Under the pieces are notes generated by a model. That model worked only from the letters and a program-made list of their open reading frames with translations. It ran no database searches and was not told the origin of the DNA. A DNA stretch of 62,818 nt, taken from Thermus arciformis (GTDB lineage: Bacteria; Deinococcota; Deinococci; Deinococcales; Thermaceae). Location: NCBI RefSeq assembly GCF_900102145.1, contig NZ_FNBC01000011.1:1-62818 (forward strand), given 5' to 3'. Shown here one piece after another: positions 38,411 through 50,073 of this stretch; positions within the stretch are counted from its first letter, which is position 1; the number at the start of each line of letters is the position of its first letter. The translations under genes were made by a program, and so were the position numbers.

Positions 38411-38413
38411 GTG

Positions 38414-38425
38414 GTGTAGCTACAC
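38414..38425. promoter_or_regulatory. Candidate operator upstream of isocitrate lyase
   Basis: GTGTAG-CTACAC is a perfect 12-base palindrome in the 96-base gap before aceA, beginning three bases after the previous stop codon; a partly matching TACACC-like sequence recurs nearby at 38453-38464. The site fits a dimeric transcription factor. No regulator gene is adjacent. Confidence 0.45.
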
Positions 38426-38506
38426 GGCCCCAGGGTGTCAAGCCCCGGGGCTTACACCCTACACCAATCCCTCCCCCGCCTCCAGACTGGAACCTGGAGG
38501 TGGGCT

Positions 38507-39823
38507 ATGGAACCCCTCAGCATGCTCAGCCCGGAGATGCGGCAGGAGGCCGAGGCGCTCCGCAAGGAGTGGGAGACCGACCCCCGCTGGAAAGGGGTCA
38601 AGCGGGACTACCGGCCCGAAGACGTGGTGCGGCTTCGCCCCAGCGTGATGGTGGAGCACACCCTGGCCAAGCGAGGGGCGGAAAAGCTCTGGCGGCTCCT
38701 CCACGAGCGCCCCTACGTCCACACCTTCGGGGCCTACACCGGGGCCATGGCGGTGCAGATGGTGCGGGCCGGGCTGGAGGCCATCTACCTCTCCGGCTGG
38801 CAGGTGGCCGCCGACGCCAACCTGGCCTGGCAGACCTACCCCGACCAGTCCCTCTACCCCTACAACTCCGTGCCCCAGATCGTGAAGCGCATCAACAACG
38901 CCCTCATGCGGGCCGACCAGATTGAGCGCTCCGAGGGCAAGGTGACCCGGGACTGGTACGTGCCCATCGTGGCCGACGCCGAGGCGGGCTTCGGCGGGGC
39001 CCTCAACGTCTTTGAGCTCACCAAGGCCATGATTGAGGCGGGAGCCGCGGGCATCCACTACGAGGACCAGCTGGCCAGCGAGAAGAAGTGCGGCCACCTG
39101 GGGGGCAAGGTCCTGGTGCCCACAAGCCAGCACATCCGCACCCTCCAGGCGGCCAGGCTCGCCGCGGACGTGATGGGCGTGCCCACGGTGATCATCGCCC
39201 GCACCGACGCCGAGGCCGCCACCCTCATCACCAGCGACATTGACGAGCGCGACCGGCCCTTCATCCTGCCGGGCGAGCGCACCCCCGAGGGCTTCTACCG
39301 CTTCAAGAACGGGATTGAGGCGGGCATCGCCCGGGCCCTGGCCTACGCCCCCTACGCCGACGTGATCTGGATGGAGACCTCCAAGCCCGACCTCGAGGAG
39401 GCCCGGAAGTTCGCCGAGGCGGTGAAGCGGGAGTTCCCCGACAAGCTCCTCGCCTACAACCTCTCCCCCTCCTTCAACTGGAAGAAGTTCCTGGACGACG
39501 AGACCATCGCCAAGTTCAACCGGGAGCTCGGGGAGATGGGGTACAAGTTCCAGTTCATCACCCTGGCGGGCTGGCACACCCTGAACTACTACACCTGGGA
39601 GCTGGCCAAGGGCTACAAGGCCCGGGGCATGCCCGCCTTCGTGGAGCTCCAGCAGAAGGAGTTCCTGGCCCAGGCCCAGGGCTTCACCGCGGTGAAGCAC
39701 CAGCGGGAGGTGGGGGCGGGCTACTTTGACGAGGTGGTCCTGGCCCTGACCCAAGGGGAGGCCTCCACCCTGGCCCTCAAGGGCTCCACGGAGGAGGCCC
39801 AGTTCAACGAGCCCGTGCACTAA
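38507..39823 (+). CDS. aceA: Isocitrate lyase
   Basis: 438 aa, first enzyme of the glyoxylate shunt, splitting isocitrate into glyoxylate and succinate. The catalytic KKCGHLGG motif holds Cys195; [18 protein letters not shown] and [13 protein letters not shown] are further family stretches. Start ATG 38507 has a GGAGGTG ribosome-binding site; an ATG 72 bases upstream is unlikely. No malate synthase is adjacent. It is a single-gene unit with a terminator at 39841 and a palindromic candidate operator in front. Confidence 0.97.
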
Positions 39824-39840: not shown

Positions 39841-39868
39841 CCGCTCCCCGGTCCCGGGGAGCGGTTTT
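39841..39868 (+). terminator. Terminator after isocitrate lyase
   Basis: An 11-bp perfect stem (CCGCTCCCCGG with CCGGGGAGCGG, 39841-39851 and 39854-39864) followed by TTTT. Confidence 0.9.
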
Positions 39869-39888: not shown

Positions 39889-39917
39889 TTGTTGCATGAA
39901 GGCACACCGCCTAGATA
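39889..39917 (+). promoter_or_regulatory. Candidate promoter of the 920-aa protein gene
   Basis: TTGTTG (39889-39894), 17-base spacer, TAGATA (39912-39917); the ATG follows 13 bases later, leaving almost no leader. Confidence 0.55.
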
Positions 39918-39930
39918 GAGTGTAGGCATC

Positions 39931-42693
39931 ATGCGCGAAGCTTCTACACCCTGGCTTCGCTACCTGGAGGTCCTCCGCCCCCACCTCCGGGGCCAGGACC
40001 ACCGGGGGAAGAGGGGGTCCTTGCGCTGGCTCGAGGCCCTCATGGCCGAGCGGGGAGGCCGGGCAGGGACGGTGCGCAACATCCTCTACAAGGACCTGGG
40101 AAGCCCGGAGGAAAAGGAAAGGCTTTACGGGCTCATCGCCGACCTCTACCGGGAGGCGGGCCTCAAGCCCCCGCCCCCCCCGGCGGAGCTCTTCCTGGAA
40201 AGCGCCCGCAAGGTGCTGGGCCGGGACAAGCGCCGCATCTTCCGCCGCTTCCTCCGGGAGCTGGAGGTGGGGGGAAGGCCCCAGATGGTGGTGGTGGGGG
40301 GGCCGGCCACGGGCAAGGGGGTGCTCCTCTCCGCCCTGGCCCGGGCCCTTTCCGCCCTGCCCCACCAGGAGCCCCACGTCCTCAACCTGGGGGGGGAGGT
40401 GGCCCAGGCCCTCATCCCCCTGGCGGAAGGCCTCGGGGTGGGGGAGGAGGTGCGGGCCCTCCTCGCCCAGCTCTCCCCCACCCAGCCCTACGCCCTCCAG
40501 GGGGCCTTGCAGCAGGAGGTCCTCGCCCTCCTGGCCGAGGCCCTGAACCGGGAGGGCCGCCCCCTCCTCCTCCGGGCCGAGGCGGAGGGCACCCTGGAGG
40601 GCCTTCCCCTCCGGGGCCCCGACGGGGGCCAGAGGGGGCTTGCCGCTTGGCTCGAGCCCTTCCTCCGCAAGCTCAAAGGGCCCTACCTGGCCGCCCTCTC
40701 CGAGGCCCCGCCCACCCTGCCCTACCAGCCCCTCTCCCCCCCAAGCCGCGAGGAGGCCCGGCGCTTCGTGCGGGAGAAGCTTCCCCACCTGCCCCCGGAG
40801 CGCCTCGAGGCCTTGGTGAACCAGGCGGGGCGGAACTTTGGGGAGCTTTCCCGCCTGGTGCTCCTGGAGGCCGCCAAGCACGACCCCCAGACCCCCCTGC
40901 AGGACGACCCCACCCTGAGGCCCCTCCTCCAGGCCCTGGCCGCCTTCAGCCCCGAGGCCGACCCCGCCTTCCCCCTGGTCCTCCTGGAAAAGGCCCTGGG
41001 CAAACCCCTGGAGAAGCTCTCCCAGGCGGAGCGGGCCCTCCTGGACTGGGTGGGGGAGGGCCTGGTGCGCCCGGCCCTGAGGAGCCTCCTCCCGGAGGAG
41101 GCCCCGAAGGCCCTCCACCTCCTGGCCCTGGAGCACTTCCCCCGGGAGAACACCTTCCGCAAGCTCTACCACGCCCGGAAGGCGGGGGAGCGGGGGGTTC
41201 TCCTGGAGCTTCTGCAGGAGGACCCCGCCCGCCTGGCCCTCCTCCCCGGCCTCTGGGAGGAGGCCCAGGCCTGGCCCCGGGAGGACCTGGAGGCCCTGGC
41301 GGGGGTGGTGGTGCGCTACCGGGCGGTCCTCGGCCAGTACGCCCACCCCGAGGCCGAGGCCGCCCTCCGGGTGCTCTCGGAGTCGCAAAACCCCTCCTTG
41401 CGCACCTGGGCCCGGATCAAGGCCGCGGAGGCCAAGGCGGACGCCGCCCTCTACAAGGAAGCGGAGGGCCTCCTTCCCCCCAAGGAGGACCTGGCCCTCC
41501 TGGACGAGACCGCCCAGGCGGAAGGCCTCTTGGTGATGGCCGCCGTGGAGCGGTGGAAGGGGGACTACGAGCGGGCCGCCCGCTTCGTGGCCGAGGCGGA
41601 AGGGCTCCCCGTGGCCCCCTTCCTCAAGGACCGGGTGCAGCTCTGGCGGGGCCTGGTGGCCAAGGACCTGGGGCGGTACGAGGAGGCCCTCGCCGCCCTC
41701 GGCCAGGTGGGGCACGACCCTCTCCTCCTGGGCCGGGCCCGCTACCAGATGGGGGACCTCCTGATGCGCTTGGGCCGCCTCGAGGCCAAGGTGCGCATGG
41801 AGGAGGGCCTGAAGGCCCTGGAAGAGGCAGGGGCCCCCAAGGACGAGGTGGCCCGGGTGCGGGCCCGCTACGCCACCCTCCTAAGGCGCCTCGGCCTCTA
41901 CGAGGAGGCGGAGGAGGCCATCCAAAAGGCCCTCGCCGAGGCCGAGGACCCCTTCACCCGGGCCCGGGTGCAAAGCGAGGCGGGCATCCTCGAGGCCGCC
42001 CGGGGCCGGCCCTTTGAGGCTCTGGCCCACCTGGTGCCCGCGGAGGCCTACTTCCGCACCACCCCCGAGCGCCCCAAGGAGGCCCGTTACCGGCACCTCC
42101 GCACCCTCTTCCGCCTGGGGGCGGCCTACCTCCTCCTGGAGGCGGGCCAACCTTACCGGGCCCCCTTCTTGGGCGGGTTAAACGCCCCCACGGCCCAAAA
42201 CCTCCTCCAAAGCCTCCTGGCGGAGATCCCGGAGGAACCCACCGACCGCTACACCGCCCTCAGGCTGGACACGGCAAGCCTCCTCGCCCTCCTCCTTCCC
42301 CCGGAAGAAGGGAAGGCCCTCTTAAAGCCCCTTCTGGAGCTGGAAAACCCCTACCTCCGGGCCCAGGCCCGCCTGGGCTACGCCGAGTGCCTGGCCCGGG
42401 AGGGAAGCCTTGGCGAGGCCCTGGCCCAGATCGTGGCCCTCCCCCCTCTGGAGGACCCCGGGCTTCTGGCCCAGGCCCGGGCGGTGGAGGTCCTGGCCCT
42501 TTTGGGCCTGGGGGAGCGGGAGGCGGCCTGGCAGAAGCTCCTGGAGGTGCGGCAAAGCCCCCTCCCCCAGGCCTTCCGCTTCCAGCTTGGCCGCGCCCTG
42601 GGGCGGTTCTGCCCGGAACTGGGAAAGCGGCTTCCCCCCACGCCCTTGGCCCTTCCCGAGGCCCTGGGCTTCCACCTGGCCAATCCTGACTAA
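39931..42693 (+). CDS. Large P-loop protein with helical repeats, unknown function
   Basis: 920 aa. Residues 1-80 are a basic helical region (SLRWLEALMAERGGRAGTVR) ending in a run of prolines (80-84). A P-loop-like G-G-P-A-T-G-K-G at 123-130 lacks the usual Ser/Thr after Lys, so nucleotide use is uncertain. From about 350 on, the sequence is a series of Leu/Ala/Glu-rich helix pairs reading like TPR repeats (for example LLRRLGLYEEAEEAIQKALA at about 650-669). The layout recalls STAND-type signalling ATPases, but no family was recognised. It lies between aceA and the suf operon with its own promoter. Confidence 0.7.
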   Translation: MREASTPWLRYLEVLRPHLRGQDHRGKRGSLRWLEALMAERGGRAGTVRNILYKDLGSPEEKERLYGLIADLYREAGLKPPPPPAELFLESARKVLGRDKRRIFRRFLRELEVGGRPQMVVVGGPATGKGVLLSALARALSALPHQEPHVLNLGGEVAQALIPLAEGLGVGEEVRALLAQLSPTQPYALQGALQQEVLALLAEALNREGRPLLLRAEAEGTLEGLPLRGPDGGQRGLAAWLEPFLRKLKGPYLAALSEAPPTLPYQPLSPPSREEARRFVREKLPHLPPERLEALVNQAGRNFGELSRLVLLEAAKHDPQTPLQDDPTLRPLLQALAAFSPEADPAFPLVLLEKALGKPLEKLSQAERALLDWVGEGLVRPALRSLLPEEAPKALHLLALEHFPRENTFRKLYHARKAGERGVLLELLQEDPARLALLPGLWEEAQAWPREDLEALAGVVVRYRAVLGQYAHPEAEAALRVLSESQNPSLRTWARIKAAEAKADAALYKEAEGLLPPKEDLALLDETAQAEGLLVMAAVERWKGDYERAARFVAEAEGLPVAPFLKDRVQLWRGLVAKDLGRYEEALAALGQVGHDPLLLGRARYQMGDLLMRLGRLEAKVRMEEGLKALEEAGAPKDEVARVRARYATLLRRLGLYEEAEEAIQKALAEAEDPFTRARVQSEAGILEAARGRPFEALAHLVPAEAYFRTTPERPKEARYRHLRTLFRLGAAYLLLEAGQPYRAPFLGGLNAPTAQNLLQSLLAEIPEEPTDRYTALRLDTASLLALLLPPEEGKALLKPLLELENPYLRAQARLGYAECLAREGSLGEALAQIVALPPLEDPGLLAQARAVEVLALLGLGEREAAWQKLLEVRQSPLPQAFRFQLGRALGRFCPELGKRLPPTPLALPEALGFHLANPD

Positions 42694-42727: not shown

Positions 42728-42779
42728 CCTACTTGCGAACGGGTCGCAGTAGGAGGCCGGCCCGACCTCAGGAGGGAAG

Positions 42780-43532
42780 ATGAACCAGCTAGAAATCCGC
42801 GACCTCTGGGCTTCCATTGACGGGGAGATGATCCTCAAGGGCGTGAACCTGGTGGTTCCCAAGGGGGAGGTCCACGCCCTCATGGGCCCCAACGGGGCCG
42901 GGAAGAGCACCCTGGGCAAGATCCTGGCCGGGGACCCCGAGTACACCGTGGAGAAGGGGGAGATCCTCCTGGACGGGGAGAACATCCTGGAGCTCTCCCC
43001 GGACGAAAGGGCGCGGAAGGGGCTTTTCCTCGCCTTCCAGTACCCCGTGGAGGTGCCCGGGGTGACCATCGCCAACTTCCTCCGCCTCGCCCTCCAGGCC
43101 AGGCTCGGCCGGGAGGTGGGGGTGGCGGAGTTCTGGGCCAAGGTGAAGAAGGCCCTGGAGCTTCTGGACTGGGACGAAAGCTACCTCTCCCGTTACCTCA
43201 ACGAGGGCTTCTCCGGCGGAGAGAAGAAGCGGAACGAGATCCTGCAGCTATTGGTCCTCGAGCCCACCTACGCCGTCCTGGACGAGACCGACTCGGGCCT
43301 GGACATTGACGCCCTCAAGGTGGTGGCCCGGGGCGTGAACGCCATGCGGGGGCCGAACTTCGGCGCGTTGGTCATCACCCACTACCAGCGCCTCCTGAAC
43401 TACATCGTCCCCGACCGGGTGCACGTGATGATGGACGGCCGGGTGGTGGCCGAGGGCGGCCCCGAGCTCGCCCTGGAGCTCGAGGCCAAGGGGTACGAGT
43501 GGCTTAAGGAAAAGGTGAAGGAGGGCGCATGA
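42780..43532 (+). CDS. sufC: Fe-S assembly ATPase SufC
   Basis: 250 aa ABC-type ATPase of the SUF scaffold. Walker [13 protein letters not shown] (about 37-48), a SufC-specific signature [13 protein letters not shown] and Walker [15 protein letters not shown]. It binds SufB and SufD and powers cluster assembly in the cytosol. An AGGAGG ribosome-binding site precedes ATG 42780. Its stop overlaps the sufB ATG. Confidence 0.98.
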
Positions 43533-44935
43533 GCGAGGCCGATCTGAGGACGCTGGGGGAGGAGTACAAATACCACTTCGTGGACGAGGTCAAGCCGGTC
43601 TTCGTGGCCGAGCGGGGCCTAAGCCGCAGGGTCATTGAGGCCATCAGCTACCACAAGGGGGAGCCCGAGTGGATGCTGAAGTTCCGCCTGCGGGCCTTTG
43701 AGATCTTCCAGAAGAAGCCCATGCCCACCTGGGGCCCCGACCTCTCGGGCCTGGACCTGGACGACCTCGTCTACTACGTGAAGCCCGCCGAGGTGCGGGA
43801 CGCCAAGAGCTGGGAGGAGGTCCCCGAGGAGATCCGCCGGACCTACGAGCGCCTGGGCATCCCCGAGGCGGAGCGCAAGGTCTTGGCCGGGGTGGGGGCC
43901 CAGTACGACTCGGAGATGGTCTACCACCGGGTCAGGGAGGAGCTTGAGCGCCAGGGGGTCATCTTCGTGGCCATTGAGGAGGGGATGAAGAAGTACGAGG
44001 ACCTCTTCAAGGAGTACTTCGCCAAGGTGGTGCCCCCTGAGGACAACAAGTTCGCCGCCCTGAACTCCGCCGCCTGGTCCGGGGGGTCCTTCGTCTACGT
44101 GCCCCCCGGGGTCAAGGTGGAGCTCCCCCTGCAGGCCTACTTCCGGGTGAACACCCCCGAGTTCGGCCAGTTTGAGCGCACCCTGATCATCGTGGACGAG
44201 GGGGCCGAGGTCCACTACATTGAGGGCTGCACCGCCCCCATGTACTCCACGGAAAGCCTCCACACGGGGGTGATTGAGATCGTGGTGAAGCGGGGGGCGC
44301 GGAGCCGCTACACCACCATCCAGAACTGGTCCACCAACATGTACAACCTGGTAACCCAGCGGGCCCTGGTCTACGGGGAGGCCTACCACGAGTGGGTGGA
44401 CGGCAACCTGGGCTCCAAGGTCACCATGAAGTACCCCTCCAGCTACCTCCTGGAGCCGGGGGCGAGGAGCGAGATCCTCTCCATCGCCTTCGCCAAGACG
44501 GGCCAGCACCAGGACACCGGCGGCAAGCTCATCCTGGCCGCCCCCCACACCTCGGGGACCATCGTCTCCAAGAGCATCTCCAAGGGGGAGGGGCGGGCGA
44601 GCTACCGCGGCCTGGTGAAGGTGACCGAAGGGGCCCGGCACGGCAAGGTCAACGTGGAGTGCGACGCCCTCCTCATTGACCCCGAAAGCCGCACCGACAC
44701 CTACCCCTACATTGAGATTGAGGAGGAAACCGCCCACGTGGGCCACGAGGCCACGGTCTCCAAGATCAACGACGAGCAGATCTTCTACCTCCAGTCCCGT
44801 GGCCTGAAGGAGGACGAGGCCGCGGCCCTCATCGTGCGCGGCTTCATTGAGCCCATCGCCAAGGAGCTCCCCCTGGAGTACGCCGTGGAGCTCAACCGGC
44901 TCATTGAGCTGGAGATGGAGGGCTCCGTAGGCTAA
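43529..44935 (+). CDS. sufB: Fe-S scaffold subunit SufB
   Basis: 468 aa, the standard length. SufB forms the scaffold on which clusters are built with SufC and SufD. Recognisable stretches are the N-terminal [20 protein letters not shown], a beta-helix core with [17 protein letters not shown] and the C-terminal [24 protein letters not shown] overlaps the sufC TGA, giving coupled translation. sufD follows after 60 bases. Confidence 0.98.
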
Positions 44936-44995
44936 GGGGCCCGGTCCGGGGGGCGAGGCTTGCGGGCCTCCCCCCTTCCCGCGCAAGGAGGCAGG

Positions 44996-46288
44996 ATGCA
45001 GGTACTGGACAAAACCCAAGTGGAGGCCCTCTCCCAAGCCCTGGGCGAGCCCGCCTGGGTGCTGGAGCAAAGGCTCAAGGCCCTCGAGGCCTTCAGCCGC
45101 CTCCCCTACCCCAGCAAGAAGGACGAGAATTGGCGCTACACCGACCTCTCCGAGGCTCCCCTGGAGCAGGAGGCGGAAGCCCCTAAAGGGCTCAGGCTCT
45201 CCCGGGACGAGCTTCCCGAAAGCGTGCGGCAGCGCCTGGAGAAGACGGACGCCTCGGGGTTTCTCGTCTTCGTGGGGCCGGACCTCGTCTACGCCGAGGT
45301 GCCCGAGGAGCTTTCGCAAAGGGGCCTGGTCTTCACCTCCCTGGCCGAGGCCCTGAAGACCCACCCGGAAAAGGTGGCGGCGGCCCTCTTCCAGGCGGTC
45401 TACACCGAGGACAAGTTCGCCGCACAGAACAGCGCCTTCTTCACCCACGGGGCCTTCCTCTACGTCCCCGCGGGGCTTGAGGTGGAAAAGCCCCTGGGGG
45501 TCTTCAAGGTGCTCCCGGAAGGGAAGGCCTCCTTCGGCCGCACCCTCCTCTTCCTGGAGGACAACGCCAAGGCCGCCTACATTGAGGAGTACCTCTCCTC
45601 CGACCTCCCTCCCACCCTCCACCTCTCCGCCACGGAGATGGTCCTGAGGCCCGGGGCCCGCCTGCGCCACGCCCACGTCCAGACCTTCGGCAAGGGGGTG
45701 TGGCACTTCCACCGGCAAAGGGCCCTCTTGGAGCGGGACGCGGGCCTCAACGACCTCGTGGTGAACCTCGGGGGCGCCTACGCCCGGAGCGAGGTGGCCT
45801 CGGAGCTCCTGGGCCCGGGGGCGGAAAGCGAGATGCTCGGCCTCTACTTCGGCCACGGGAAGCAGCAGTTTGACCACTACACCCTGCAGCACCACGTGGC
45901 CCACCACACCCGAAGCGACCTCCTCTACAAGGGGGCGGTGAAGGACGAGGCCCGGGCGGTCTTCTCCGGCCTCATCCGGCTGGAAAAGGGCGCCCAGAAG
46001 ACGGACGCCTACCAGGCGAACCGCAACCTCCTCCTCTCCCCCACGGCCCGGGTGGACTCCATCCCCCAGCTGGAGATCGGGGCCAACGACGTGCGCTGCA
46101 CCCACGGGAGCACCACCGCCCCCGTGGACGAGATGCAGCTCTTCTACCTCCAGTCCCGGGGGCTTCCTCGAGGCCTCGCCCAGGAGCTCCTGGTCAAGGC
46201 CCACCTGGCGGACGTCCTCACCCGCATCCCCTTGAAGGCGCTTCGGGCCCACATTGAGGCGGTCATTGAGGAGAAGGTGCGGATCTAG
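44996..46288 (+). CDS. sufD: Fe-S scaffold subunit SufD
   Basis: 430 aa from ATG 44996, which has a strong AAGGAGG ribosome-binding site; an upstream in-frame start at 44960 lacks one. Paralogue of SufB: KDENWRYTDLSEA near 38-50, beta-helix core, and the C-terminal CTHGSTTAPVDEMQLFYLQ with the conserved His. It completes the SufBCD complex. Two bases separate its stop from the Rieske protein gene. Confidence 0.97.
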   Translation: MQVLDKTQVEALSQALGEPAWVLEQRLKALEAFSRLPYPSKKDENWRYTDLSEAPLEQEAEAPKGLRLSRDELPESVRQRLEKTDASGFLVFVGPDLVYAEVPEELSQRGLVFTSLAEALKTHPEKVAAALFQAVYTEDKFAAQNSAFFTHGAFLYVPAGLEVEKPLGVFKVLPEGKASFGRTLLFLEDNAKAAYIEEYLSSDLPPTLHLSATEMVLRPGARLRHAHVQTFGKGVWHFHRQRALLERDAGLNDLVVNLGGAYARSEVASELLGPGAESEMLGLYFGHGKQQFDHYTLQHHVAHHTRSDLLYKGAVKDEARAVFSGLIRLEKGAQKTDAYQANRNLLLSPTARVDSIPQLEIGANDVRCTHGSTTAPVDEMQLFYLQSRGLPRGLAQELLVKAHLADVLTRIPLKALRAHIEAVIEEKVRI

Positions 46289-46699: not shown

Positions 46700-46711
46700 G
46701 GGAGGTGAAGG

Positions 46712-46912
46712 ATGCTCAGGCTCAAGGTGGAAGGCATGACCTGCAACCACTGCGTCATGGCGGTGGCGAAGGCCCTCAAGAAGGTGCCCGGCGTGGAGAA
46801 GGTGGAGGTCTCCCTGGAAAAGGGGGAGGCCCTGGTGGAGGGGGCGGCCGACCCCAAGGCCCTCGTCCAGGCGGTGGAGGAGGAGGGGTACAAGGCCGAG
46901 GTCCTGGCCTAG
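46712..46912 (+). CDS. copZ: Copper chaperone CopZ
   Basis: 66 aa heavy-metal-associated domain with the M-T-C-N-H-C metal site at residues 9-14 and the ferredoxin-like beta-alpha-beta pattern. It carries Cu+ in the cytosol to CopA and CsoR. Strong GGAGGTG ribosome-binding site. First gene of copZ-csoR-DUF305-copA and under the candidate CsoR operator. Confidence 0.95.
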   Translation: MLRLKVEGMTCNHCVMAVAKALKKVPGVEKVEVSLEKGEALVEGAADPKALVQAVEEEGYKAEVLA

Positions 46913-46914
46913 CC

Positions 46915-47199
46915 ATGCCCCATGCCCATCTGCACCTGGACCCCAAGGTGAGGGAGGAGGCGAGAAGGCGCCTCCTCTCCGCCAAGGGGCACCTGGAGGG
47001 GGTCTTGCGCATGCTGGAGGACGAGGGGGTCTACTGCGTGGACGTCCTCAAGCAGCTCAAGGCCGTCCAGGGGGCTCTGGACCGCGTGGGGGAGATGGTC
47101 TTAAGGGCCCACCTCAGGGACCACGTGGCCACCGCCCACGAGCGGGGGGACGTGGAGGAGATCGTAGAGGAGCTCATGGAAGCCCTCAAGTACCGCTAG
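46915..47199 (+). CDS. csoR: Copper-sensing repressor CsoR
   Basis: 94 aa all-helical repressor. Ligands of the Cu+ site are Cys41 (VYCVD), His66 and His70 (LRAHLRDH), the C-H-H set I recall for T. thermophilus CsoR and unlike the C-H-C set of other bacteria. Copper binding releases it from DNA and so derepresses the operon. The ATG follows the copZ stop by two bases. Confidence 0.95.
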   Translation: MPHAHLHLDPKVREEARRRLLSAKGHLEGVLRMLEDEGVYCVDVLKQLKAVQGALDRVGEMVLRAHLRDHVATAHERGDVEEIVEELMEALKYR

Positions 47200-47209
47200 G
47201 AGGTCAAGC

Positions 47210-47710
47210 GTGCGCCACCTGACCCTGGTTCTCCTTTGGCTCGTGCCCGTTTTCGCCCAACACGCCCACCACGCCCCTGCCGATTCCGGGGAGAGGGCCT
47301 TTCTCTCCGCCATGATCGCCCACCACGAGGGGGCTTTGGCCATGGCCCGCTTCATTCTGGAGAAGGGCAAGGACCGGGAAGTCCGGGCCTGGGCCGAGGC
47401 CATCCTCAAGGACCAAGGACGGGAGATCGCCCTCATGCGAAGCTGGCTGGGGAGCCTGGGCGGACTGGACCAGGCGGCCTACGCCGCCATGGAAAAGGAG
47501 ATGGCGGCCATGCTCCAGGAGCTTAAGGCCGCCCAAGACCCTGACCGGACCTTCGTGGCCCTCATGCTCCTGCACCACAAAGGAGCGGTGGAGATGGCCC
47601 TGGAAGCCCTTTCCACCGCCAAGGACCGCCGCGTCTTGGACTTGGCCCGGGACATCGTCCTGGCCCAGGCGAAGGAGATGCACACCTTCAGGCTATGGCT
47701 CTTGAAGTGA
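47210..47710 (+). CDS. DUF305 secreted protein, probable copper-related
   Basis: 166 aa with a short signal peptide ([17 protein letters not shown]) and a His-rich mature start (QHAHHAP), followed by two helical repeats each with a DUF305 motif: [12 protein letters not shown] (about 35-46) and [12 protein letters not shown] (about 122-133). DUF305 proteins have been linked to copper tolerance through His and Met clusters. GTG start at 47210. It sits between csoR and copA and overlaps copA by 16 bases, so it belongs to the CsoR-controlled operon. Confidence 0.85.
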
Positions 47711-50073
47711 AGGTGGGGGTCCGCGGGATGACCTGCGCCGCCTGCGTGGCCCGGGTGGAAAGGGCCTTGAAGCGGGCGGAAGGGGTGGAGGAGGCCCGGG
47801 TCAACCTCACCACCGAGGAGGCCTTCTTGCGCCTGCAGGAGGGCGTGGACCTCCGGAAAATCCTAAAGCGGGTGGAGGAGGCCGGGTACGAGCCCGTGGT
47901 GGCCCGGGCCGAGATCCCCGTGAAGGGCATGACCTGCGCCGCCTGCGTGGCCCGGGTGGAAAGGGCCCTGGCCAAGCTTCCCGGGGTACTCGCGGCGAGC
48001 GTGAACCTGGCCACGGAAAAGGCCTTCGTGGAGTACCTGCCGGACACGGTGAGCCTTGCCCGGATCCGGCAGGCCATCCGGGAGGCGGGCTACGAGCCCC
48101 TGGAGGGCGCGGAGGAGGCGCAGGAAAAGGCGCCCACCTACCGCAAGGACCTCCTCCTGGCCCTCCCCTTCGCCCTCCTCACCCTCCTCCTCGCCATGGG
48201 GCCCATGCTCCTCCCCCTGCCCCGCTTCCCCGGCTTCCTCCAGGCCCTCGCCGCCCTCCCCGTCCTCTACGCGGGAAGGCGGTTTTTCCGGCAGGCCCTG
48301 GCCGAGGCCCGCCACCTCGCCTTCGGCATGAGCACCCTGGTGGCCCTGGGGGCGGGAAGCGCCTACCTCTACTCTTTCCTGGTCCTCTTTTTGCCTGGCC
48401 TCTTCCCCGAGGAGGCCCGCCACCTCTACCTCGAGGCGGGGGCGGTGATCCTGGCCCTGATCCTTTTGGGCAAGCACCTGGAGGAAAAGGCCAAGGGGAA
48501 GGCCTCGGAGGCCATCCGCAAGCTCCTGGCCTTGAGGCCCAAGACCGCCCGGGTGGTGCAGGAAGGGGAGGAAAAGGAGATCCCCGCCGAAGCCCTCATC
48601 CCTGGCGACCTGGTGCGGGTCCTTCCCGGCGAGCGCATCCCCGCCGACGGGGTGGTGGTGGAGGGCTTTAGCCACGTGGACGAGGCCATGCTCACCGGGG
48701 AGCCCATCCCCAAGGCCAAAAAGCCCGGGGATGAGGTGGTGGGGGGAACGGTGAACGGGGAAGGTCCCCTCCTCATCCGGGTAAGCCGGGTGGGGGAGGC
48801 CACGGTCCTGGCCCAGATGGCCCGCCTGGTGGAGGAAGCCCAGGCCTACAAGCCCCGGGTGCAGGAGGTGGCGGACCGCATCGCCAGCGTCTTCGTGCCC
48901 ATCGTGCTCATCATCGCCCTTATCACCTTTACCCTTTGGATTCTCTATGGCCCCGGCCTCTCCTACGCCTTCGTGGCCCTCCTTTCCGTTCTCCTCATCG
49001 CCTGCCCTTGCGCCATGGGCCTCGCCACCCCAGCGGCCATCGCTGTGGCCACGGGGCGGGCGGCCCAGCTCGGCCTCCTCTTCCGCAAGGGGACGGCCCT
49101 CGAGGCCCTGGCCCGGGCGGATACCGTGGTCCTGGACAAGACCGGGACCCTGACCCAAGGGAAGCCCACCCTCACGGAACGTTTAGGGTTTGCCCTGGAC
49201 CCCCTCGAGGCCCTGCGGCTGGCCGCGGCTCTGGAGCGAGGGAGCGAACACCCCATCGCCAAGGCGGTTTTGGATGCCGCCAAGGACCTTTCCATACCCG
49301 AGGCCCAGGCGGTGCGGGCTCTTCCCGGGGAGGGGATCGAGGGAGTCGTGGAGGGGAAGAAGCTTTACCTGGGGGGCCCAGCCCTGATGGAGAGGCTTGG
49401 GGTGGCGCTTCCCAAGGAGGCCTGGGAGCTATCCGAAAAGGGCTACACTCCCCTTTACCTGGCGGATGGGGAGAGGCTTTTGGCCGCCTTCGGGGTCTTT
49501 GACCCCCCCAAGCCCGAGGCGCGAAGGGTGGTGGCCGCTTTAAAGGCCCTGGGCCTCAAACCCGTCCTCCTCACCGGGGACCACCCCATCCCGGCCAGGC
49601 GGGTGGCCGAGGCCTTGGGCATAGAGGAGGTGCTGGCCGGGGTGCGCCCTGAGGGTAAGGTGGAGGCCATACGGCACCTCCAGGCCCAGGGGCGGAAGGT
49701 GATCTTTGTGGGGGACGGCATCAACGACGCCGCCGCCTTGGCCCAGGCCGATGCGGGCATCGCCCTGGCCACGGGCACGGACATCGCCGTGGAGGCAGGG
49801 GATGTCATCCTGCTTTCTCCGAGCCTGGAAAGCTTGGTGGACGCCATCCTTCTGGCACGGCGTACCCTTCGGACCATCTACCTCAACTTCTTCTGGGCCT
49901 ACGCCTACAACATCCTCCTCATCCCCGTGGCGGCCGGCATCCTCTACCCCTTCACCGGGCTACTGCTAAACCCCATGCTGGCGGCCGGTGCCATGACCCT
50001 CTCCAGCCTCTTCGTGCTCAGCAACTCCTTGAGGCTAAAAGGGTTCCAGCCAAGGAGCTTTACCGTAGCTTAA
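47695..50073 (+). CDS. copA: Cu+-exporting P-type ATPase CopA
   Basis: 792 aa P1B-type ATPase. Two N-terminal metal-binding domains with G-M-T-C-A-A-C (Cys14/17 and Cys81/84), membrane CPC motif ([14 protein letters not shown], about 436), phosphorylation site DKTGTLTQG (about 481), HP motif SEHPIAKA and hinge [10 protein letters not shown]. It pumps Cu+ out of the cytosol. The two metal-binding domains share an identical 39-base stretch. The stop codon lies inside one of the TTTAC/TTAA sites that precede the next operon. Confidence 0.97.
47728..47967. repeat. Identical 39-bp direct repeats in copA
   Basis: 47728-47766 and 47929-47967 are identical and 201 bases (67 codons) apart. They encode the copper-binding helix of the two metal-binding domains. 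Confidence 0.9.

Follow-up and report, generated by a model that had tools for sequence, protein, structure and literature searches.

A putative autoregulated MalT-like regulator of glyoxylate shunt genes in Thermus and its relatives

MalT, the STAND-type maltose activator of Escherichia coli, acts on several short boxes whose arrangement varies and carries a C-terminal LuxR-type HTH together with an intact ATP site. In the same bacterium, IclR is the repressor of aceBAK. The role that we propose below for a Thermus protein resembles that of IclR as a local regulator of the glyoxylate shunt, although IclR belongs to an unrelated and much smaller protein family. The protein, for which we use the shorthand Q, has 920 amino acids and is encoded in the window, a stretch of 62,818 nucleotides from Thermus arciformis. 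Its domain layout, conservation, linkage and co-occurrence with other genes were computed here, as was the conservation of its candidate DNA boxes.

Q and MalT have in common the NTPase core, winged helix, arm and TPR sensor superhelix (PMC4381067, PMC10427625), and the boxes associated with Q are likewise several, short and variably arranged. Q differs from MalT in its N-terminal HTH-like domain, its degenerate Walker A and Walker B motifs, its boxes and its targets. The order N-terminal DNA-binding domain, NOD, TPR is that of AfsR and the large SARP regulators (PMC10936776), but in AfsR the N-terminal part consists of an OmpR-like winged helix and BTAD, for which Q gives no Pfam match. PH0952, a STAND protein with a TPR sensor (6mfv, PMC6468293), is the best fold match over the NTPase and TPR parts (Foldseek E 1e-10); relative to PH0952, Q adds the N-terminal domain and has lost the ATPase motifs. 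The layout and logic of Q resemble those of MalT and AfsR, and what sets it apart is the position and type of the HTH and the loss of the ATP motifs. Because these features differ from MalT and AfsR, we do not file Q as a STAND ATPase.

Architecture and conservation of Q

The earlier note placed a 920-aa ORF between genes for isocitrate lyase and SufC. The ORF lies exactly there, and its flanks match those families (Pfam ICL E 1.6e-116; TIGR01978 E 2.4e-101):

39931..42693, + strand: Q gene, HTH-like/STAND-like/TPR protein (ORF position, homologue search, model, dN/dS)
38507..39823, + strand: isocitrate lyase gene aceA, start taken as ATG 38507
42780..46288, + strand: sufC-sufB-sufD operon, the downstream neighbour and not a supported target

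In T. thermophilus HB8 the corresponding locus tag would be TTHA1837, judging from the flanking TTHA1836 (isocitrate lyase) and TTHA1838 (SufC) (PMC7662524). Our search of 111 genomes of the phylum found Q in 50 of 50 Thermaceae genomes, and Q gives a single match within its own genome. Comparisons with other Thermus yield dN of about 0.09-0.11 and dS of about 0.4-0.6 (dN/dS about 0.15-0.28), and Q is under purifying selection. This ratio, together with the presence of Q throughout the Thermaceae, shows that Q is not a chance ORF. Q itself is large and uncharacterised, in Thermus as in its relatives, and a search of one literature library found no paper on the Q gene and none naming a glyoxylate shunt regulator in Thermus. 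Frameshifts split the copies at L191 (G048), L192 (G029), L193 (G038) and L194 (G003); in G038, sufB and sufD are split too, so an assembly error is likely behind the split Q copy of that genome.

A structure model built from 33 aligned relatives (mean pLDDT 90.3) places a small HTH-like N-terminal domain before a P-loop NTPase, a winged helix, an arm and a MalT-like TPR superhelix:

39931..40188, + strand: N-terminal domain, residues 1-86, with modelled helices 7-18, 31-40, 45-54 and 59-75 and low-scoring matches to XRE/lambda-repressor-like folds (Z up to 4.5)
40216..40698, + strand: P-loop NTPase-like domain, residues 96-256 (LGRDKR ... ALSE)
40297..40320, + strand: degenerate Walker A GGPATGKG, residues 123-130
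40906..41073, + strand: residues 326-381, probably the winged helix of the STAND core, assigned from the secondary structure of the model
41278..42681, + strand: sensor-like TPR superhelix, residues 450-917 (Pfam TPR; model; MalT domain III, 1hz4, Z 18.3 over 344 residues; Rap/NprR, Z about 22)

The segment 3′ of the P-loop domain fits a lid, winged helix and arm in the model, so that a NOD core is followed by a repeat sensor as in other STAND proteins. The earlier note had read the protein as STAND-like with a degenerate P-loop, an altered NTPase site and more than 500 residues of helical repeats, and had proposed structure prediction and a fold search. The model, the match to 6mfv and the Walker residues bear this reading out; residues from about 393 to 917 form helical repeats in the model, and TPR repeats are the only Pfam matches, with TPR_8 above its cut-off. 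A PDB sequence search with Q returned no close relative, only one TPR at E 0.54.

The intact Walker A pattern GxxxxGK[ST] is absent from Q, whose GGPATGKG lacks the Ser/Thr. Across the Q clade the last position is G, S or R (S in L024 and L044, R in L046), and GKT is kept solely in G050, which has an intermediate form, and in the Trueperaceae paralogs. The Walker B acidic pair (hhhhD[DE]) is likewise missing, as the Q clade strand reads LLLRAE without Asp and the paralogs carry an LLxHVSQ-like sequence, also with no Asp at that strand. In a midpoint-rooted tree with long branches flagged, the degenerate-Walker clade is grouped with full support and branches in species order. The Walker loss looks derived, since the Trueperaceae paralogs and G050 keep GKT and the tree groups the degenerate clade, and the gene looks vertically inherited because this clade follows species order. 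With both Walker motifs degenerate throughout the clade, ATP hydrolysis by Q is unlikely; nucleotide may still be bound.

The N-terminal domain was modelled on its own with a pLDDT of 88.5, and in this separate model four residues separate helices 31-40 and 45-54, which are paired as in an HTH. Residues 1-86 are a signature common to the Q clade and its paralogs, with 16 of 86 residues invariant and a motif VRNI[LI]Y[KR]D. Pfam matches of 33 Q members at E <= 1 include no HTH family, an absence from profiles that does not exclude the fold. Foldseek with this domain gave nothing significant (no match with E under 0.8), and a structural second look returned mostly lambda-repressor/XRE domains, weakly (Z 2-4.5). 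These matches hint at a DNA-binding HTH but do not prove one. The 86-residue N-terminus is of a different make from that of the SARP/AfsR proteins, with neither Trans_reg_C nor BTAD matched in Q by Pfam. A C-terminal LuxR-type HTH as in MalT and LAL proteins is also absent: the TPR runs to residue 917, and there is no GerE/LuxR Pfam match.

Genomic partners of the Q gene

Within the Thermaceae, Q lies directly after aceA in Thermus, in genera g2, g3 and g5 and in two Meiothermus-like (g4) genomes; in most g4 genomes the two genes are not adjacent. The suf operon follows Q in Thermus, g2, g3 and g5. The single 3.26-Mb contig of G108, a Truepera-like genome, carries malate synthase, aceA and Q as a cluster without suf. 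Neighbour conservation, which the earlier note had proposed to check, thus takes the form of adjacency to aceA in Thermus, other Thermaceae and G108.

Outside the Thermaceae, aceA was found in four of the searched genomes (G050, G058, G099 and G108), three of which carry the Q clade while G050 carries the intermediate form. Conversely, three of the five non-Thermaceae genomes with the Q clade have aceA; it was not seen in the other two, G096 and G072, the latter being just 67% complete. Neither the Q clade nor aceA was seen in the remaining genera of family f4 (g13, g14). This co-occurrence gives a Fisher p of 0.001, or 0.0001 counting family f2.

Two observations concern the suf side of the locus. 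The sufC 5′ region holds a conserved inverted repeat (window 42729-42752; CTTACTGCGAAYGGGTCGCAGTAAG in most Thermus) right after a TATACT element; this repeat may serve suf as an operator or leader structure. Beyond suf, window 46705-50073 encodes a CsoR-like metal-sensitive repressor, a DUF305 protein and a heavy-metal P-type ATPase, probably a metal (copper?) cluster.

GGTGTA and TACACC boxes at aceA, Q and other promoters

Short boxes of the form GGTGTA and its complement TACACC recur upstream of aceA and of Q:

38413..38465, + strand: candidate operator boxes 5′ of aceA (GGTGTA 38413, TACACG 38421, GGTGTC 38434, TACACC 38453, TACACC 38460)
39841..39868, + strand: terminator-like hairpin after aceA (CCGCTCCCC GGTCC CGGGGAGCGG, then TTTT), read in the sequence; a mechanical scan did not list it
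39904..39950, + strand: boxes at the Q promoter (ACACC 39904; AGTGTA 39919, overlapping the -10; TACACC 39945, in codons 5-7)

The aceA boxes of the window include the pair GGTGT-N15-ACACC (38434-38458). Aligned aceA upstream regions conserve tandem pairs of this form with 7-8 bases between them and variable intervening sequence, and paired boxes are present in 30 of 31 Thermaceae aceA promoters. Similar tandem arrays precede the malate synthase-aceA operon of G108, G099 and G058 (3/3). No paired boxes were found in the malate synthase promoter of the window's own genome. The longest aceA ORF (462 aa), from GTG 38435, overlaps the boxes; the likely start is ATG 38507. A hairpin sequestering the SD in the aceA leader was considered and dropped, because the likely start site lies downstream of the first hairpin arm.

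Elsewhere in the genome, exact GGTGT-N15-ACACC sites include the promoter of a gene resembling that of pyruvate phosphate dikinase (PPDK), and an outward form, TACACC-N7-GGTGTA, sits 40 bp upstream of a gene for a 2-oxoglutarate dehydrogenase E1-like protein (SucA); PPDK and SucA are named from N-terminal sequence rather than by profile search. The ppdK boxes are found in 21 of 21 promoters, 11 of them exact, and the sucA boxes, which are confined to Thermus, are exact in all 15. A chained TACACC-N7-GGTGTA-N13-TACACC precedes a 24-aa ORF, exact in six of six genomes. This ORF, MEQAKEISQAWQEALETYGEREEE, lies next to typA with a ribosome-binding site (L084:1348-1419, - strand), is 92-100% identical in six Thermus genomes (orthologs L165, L166, L170, L181, L184) and likely encodes an unannotated microprotein. 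Across promoters, boxes thus occur as inward pairs (GGTGTA-N12/13-TACACC) or outward pairs (TACACC-N6/7-GGTGTA), some of them chained.

Shuffled controls contain such boxes in about 1-2% of shuffles, and the exact outward pattern occurs at 42 sites in 27 Thermus genomes versus 7 for the reversed pattern; these two controls reject a chance origin. The sufC promoters, taken as a further control, carry the boxes in 0 of 9 cases. When two mismatches are allowed in one genome, the outward pattern shows no excess (60 versus 133 for the control). Degenerate genome-wide scans were therefore uninformative and were left out of target calling. One exact outward site (C35:6945) was dropped as a target since it sits within an ORF.

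The Q gene probably has its own promoter, as the earlier note had proposed: the GC hairpin with TTTT parts it from aceA, and a -10-like TATAGT(GTA) element near the start codon is conserved across Thermus. Q promoters, including those of Marinithermus- and Truepera-like genomes, hold 39 GGTGTA/TACACC hexamers where 3.5 are expected. In Meiothermus-like genomes, the Q copies unlinked to aceA carry TACACC-N7-GGTGTA immediately before the start; G058 has GGTGT-N15-ACACT at its copy, and Thermus Q promoters keep the half-sites without the exact N13/N7 spacing. The TACAC box within codons 5-7 extends this pattern into the Thermaceae reading frame. Residue 5 varies while its third base is always T, the T-ACA junction over codons 5-6 is kept in 13 of 13 Thermaceae sequences printed, and the Thr6 codon is always the rare ACA (12 of 262 Thr codons counted, about 5%). 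Because the amino acid varies yet this T and the rare ACA are kept, the constraint acts at the DNA level.

The Trueperaceae paralogs (for example, L047, L054 and L059) have the N-terminal domain and layout of Q at 26-32% identity, but they keep GRPGSGKT, are longer (about 1050-1120 aa) and lack the boxes upstream. Their promoters have a TGTGTAC-type sequence in common and no hexamer boxes except one in G050. An TGTGTACTTGTTTAC-like sequence is common to the upstream regions of L047, L048, L054 and L059. L047 and L059 adjoin an AcuC-like histone-deacetylase-fold gene, and L048, probably also L054, adjoins a GNAT acetyltransferase; a link of these paralogs to acetyl-CoA metabolism is possible.

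Alternative readings and a model for Q

We consider it probable that Q regulates glyoxylate shunt and gluconeogenesis genes, and its own gene, in the manner of MalT and AfsR and through the GGTGTA/TACACC boxes; it would then be a master regulator of acetate metabolism. The boxes might instead belong to another regulator, for example of IclR, GntR or CRP type, with Q as its target and serving, without binding DNA, as a STAND-like scaffold or a post-translational acetate/glyoxylate sensor. We judge this rather unlikely, while recognizing that the HTH evidence described above is weak and that the malate synthase gene of HB8 adjoins an IclR-family gene. Known factors also act at this locus. In T. 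thermophilus HB8 lacking the CRP-family protein TTHB099, aceA rises by log2 4.4 and sufC falls by log2 2.5 (PMC7662524), and aceA is thus strongly regulated, with regulators other than Q acting on it too. However, the half-sites of the published TTHB099 consensus TGTATTCTAGAATACA are spaced differently, and the table of mapped TTHB099 sites does not list aceA (PMC7662524). Moreover, boxes persist at the Q promoter across families, also where Q is unlinked from aceA, as is typical of a local regulator that controls its own gene, and the glyoxylate operon arrays occur in genomes that have Q.

The earlier note had suggested that Q regulates one of its neighbours, and here the two neighbours part. 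Q is adjacent to and co-directional with sufC in Thermus, g2, g3 and g5, but control of the suf Fe-S assembly operon is very improbable: its promoters lack the boxes, sufC has its own TATACT promoter and an inverted repeat of different sequence, and Q has no suf neighbour at several Thermaceae loci or in G108, where it still adjoins aceA. Linkage, co-occurrence and common promoter boxes identify aceA, and not suf, as the partner of Q.

Bacterial NLR-like defence proteins also have a STAND and TPR layout, but a role for Q as an Avs/NLR-like defence sensor, which the earlier note had raised, can be put aside as extremely improbable, given a vertically inherited core gene in a metabolic context, no toxic effector domain by Pfam, only weak Csx3 P-loop matches from PADLOC (best E 0.012), no relatives by tblastn in the phage and plasmid collections searched, and nothing convincing from PHROGs or a scan of viral contigs with the N-terminal domain profile.

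Returning to Q as a regulator, we infer that it binds the boxes itself. This is the simplest account, because Q has a DNA-binding-like domain, boxes lie at the Q gene wherever it is located, and boxes lie at the glyoxylate operon where both genes are present. The N-terminal HTH-like domain would contact arrays of GGTGTA and TACACC, the STAND-type core (NTPase-like domain and winged helix) would serve as switch and oligomerisation unit, probably independently of ATP hydrolysis, and the TPR superhelix would respond to a metabolite or to a protein partner. Candidate targets are aceA in Thermaceae, malate synthase-aceA in Marinithermus- and Truepera-like genomes, ppdK, sucA, the 24-aa ORF and the Q gene. 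Boxes just upstream of the presumed -35 suggest that Q activates aceA and ppdK, and boxes overlapping the -10 and first codons suggest that it represses its own gene.

More tentatively, Q may represent a class of pseudo-STAND transcription factors, specific to Deinococcota, that have lost hydrolysis, sense a central-carbon signal through the TPR and assemble on GGTGTA arrays to control an ancient glyoxylate/gluconeogenesis regulon comprising these targets. If so, the class would operate the STAND switch independently of nucleotide, in everyday metabolism and after erosion of its ATP motifs, and the sister clade that retains these motifs makes the need for an NTPase site directly testable. Q is a defined candidate regulator with a DNA box and a few named targets, all of which can be tested in a thermophile that is amenable to genetics.
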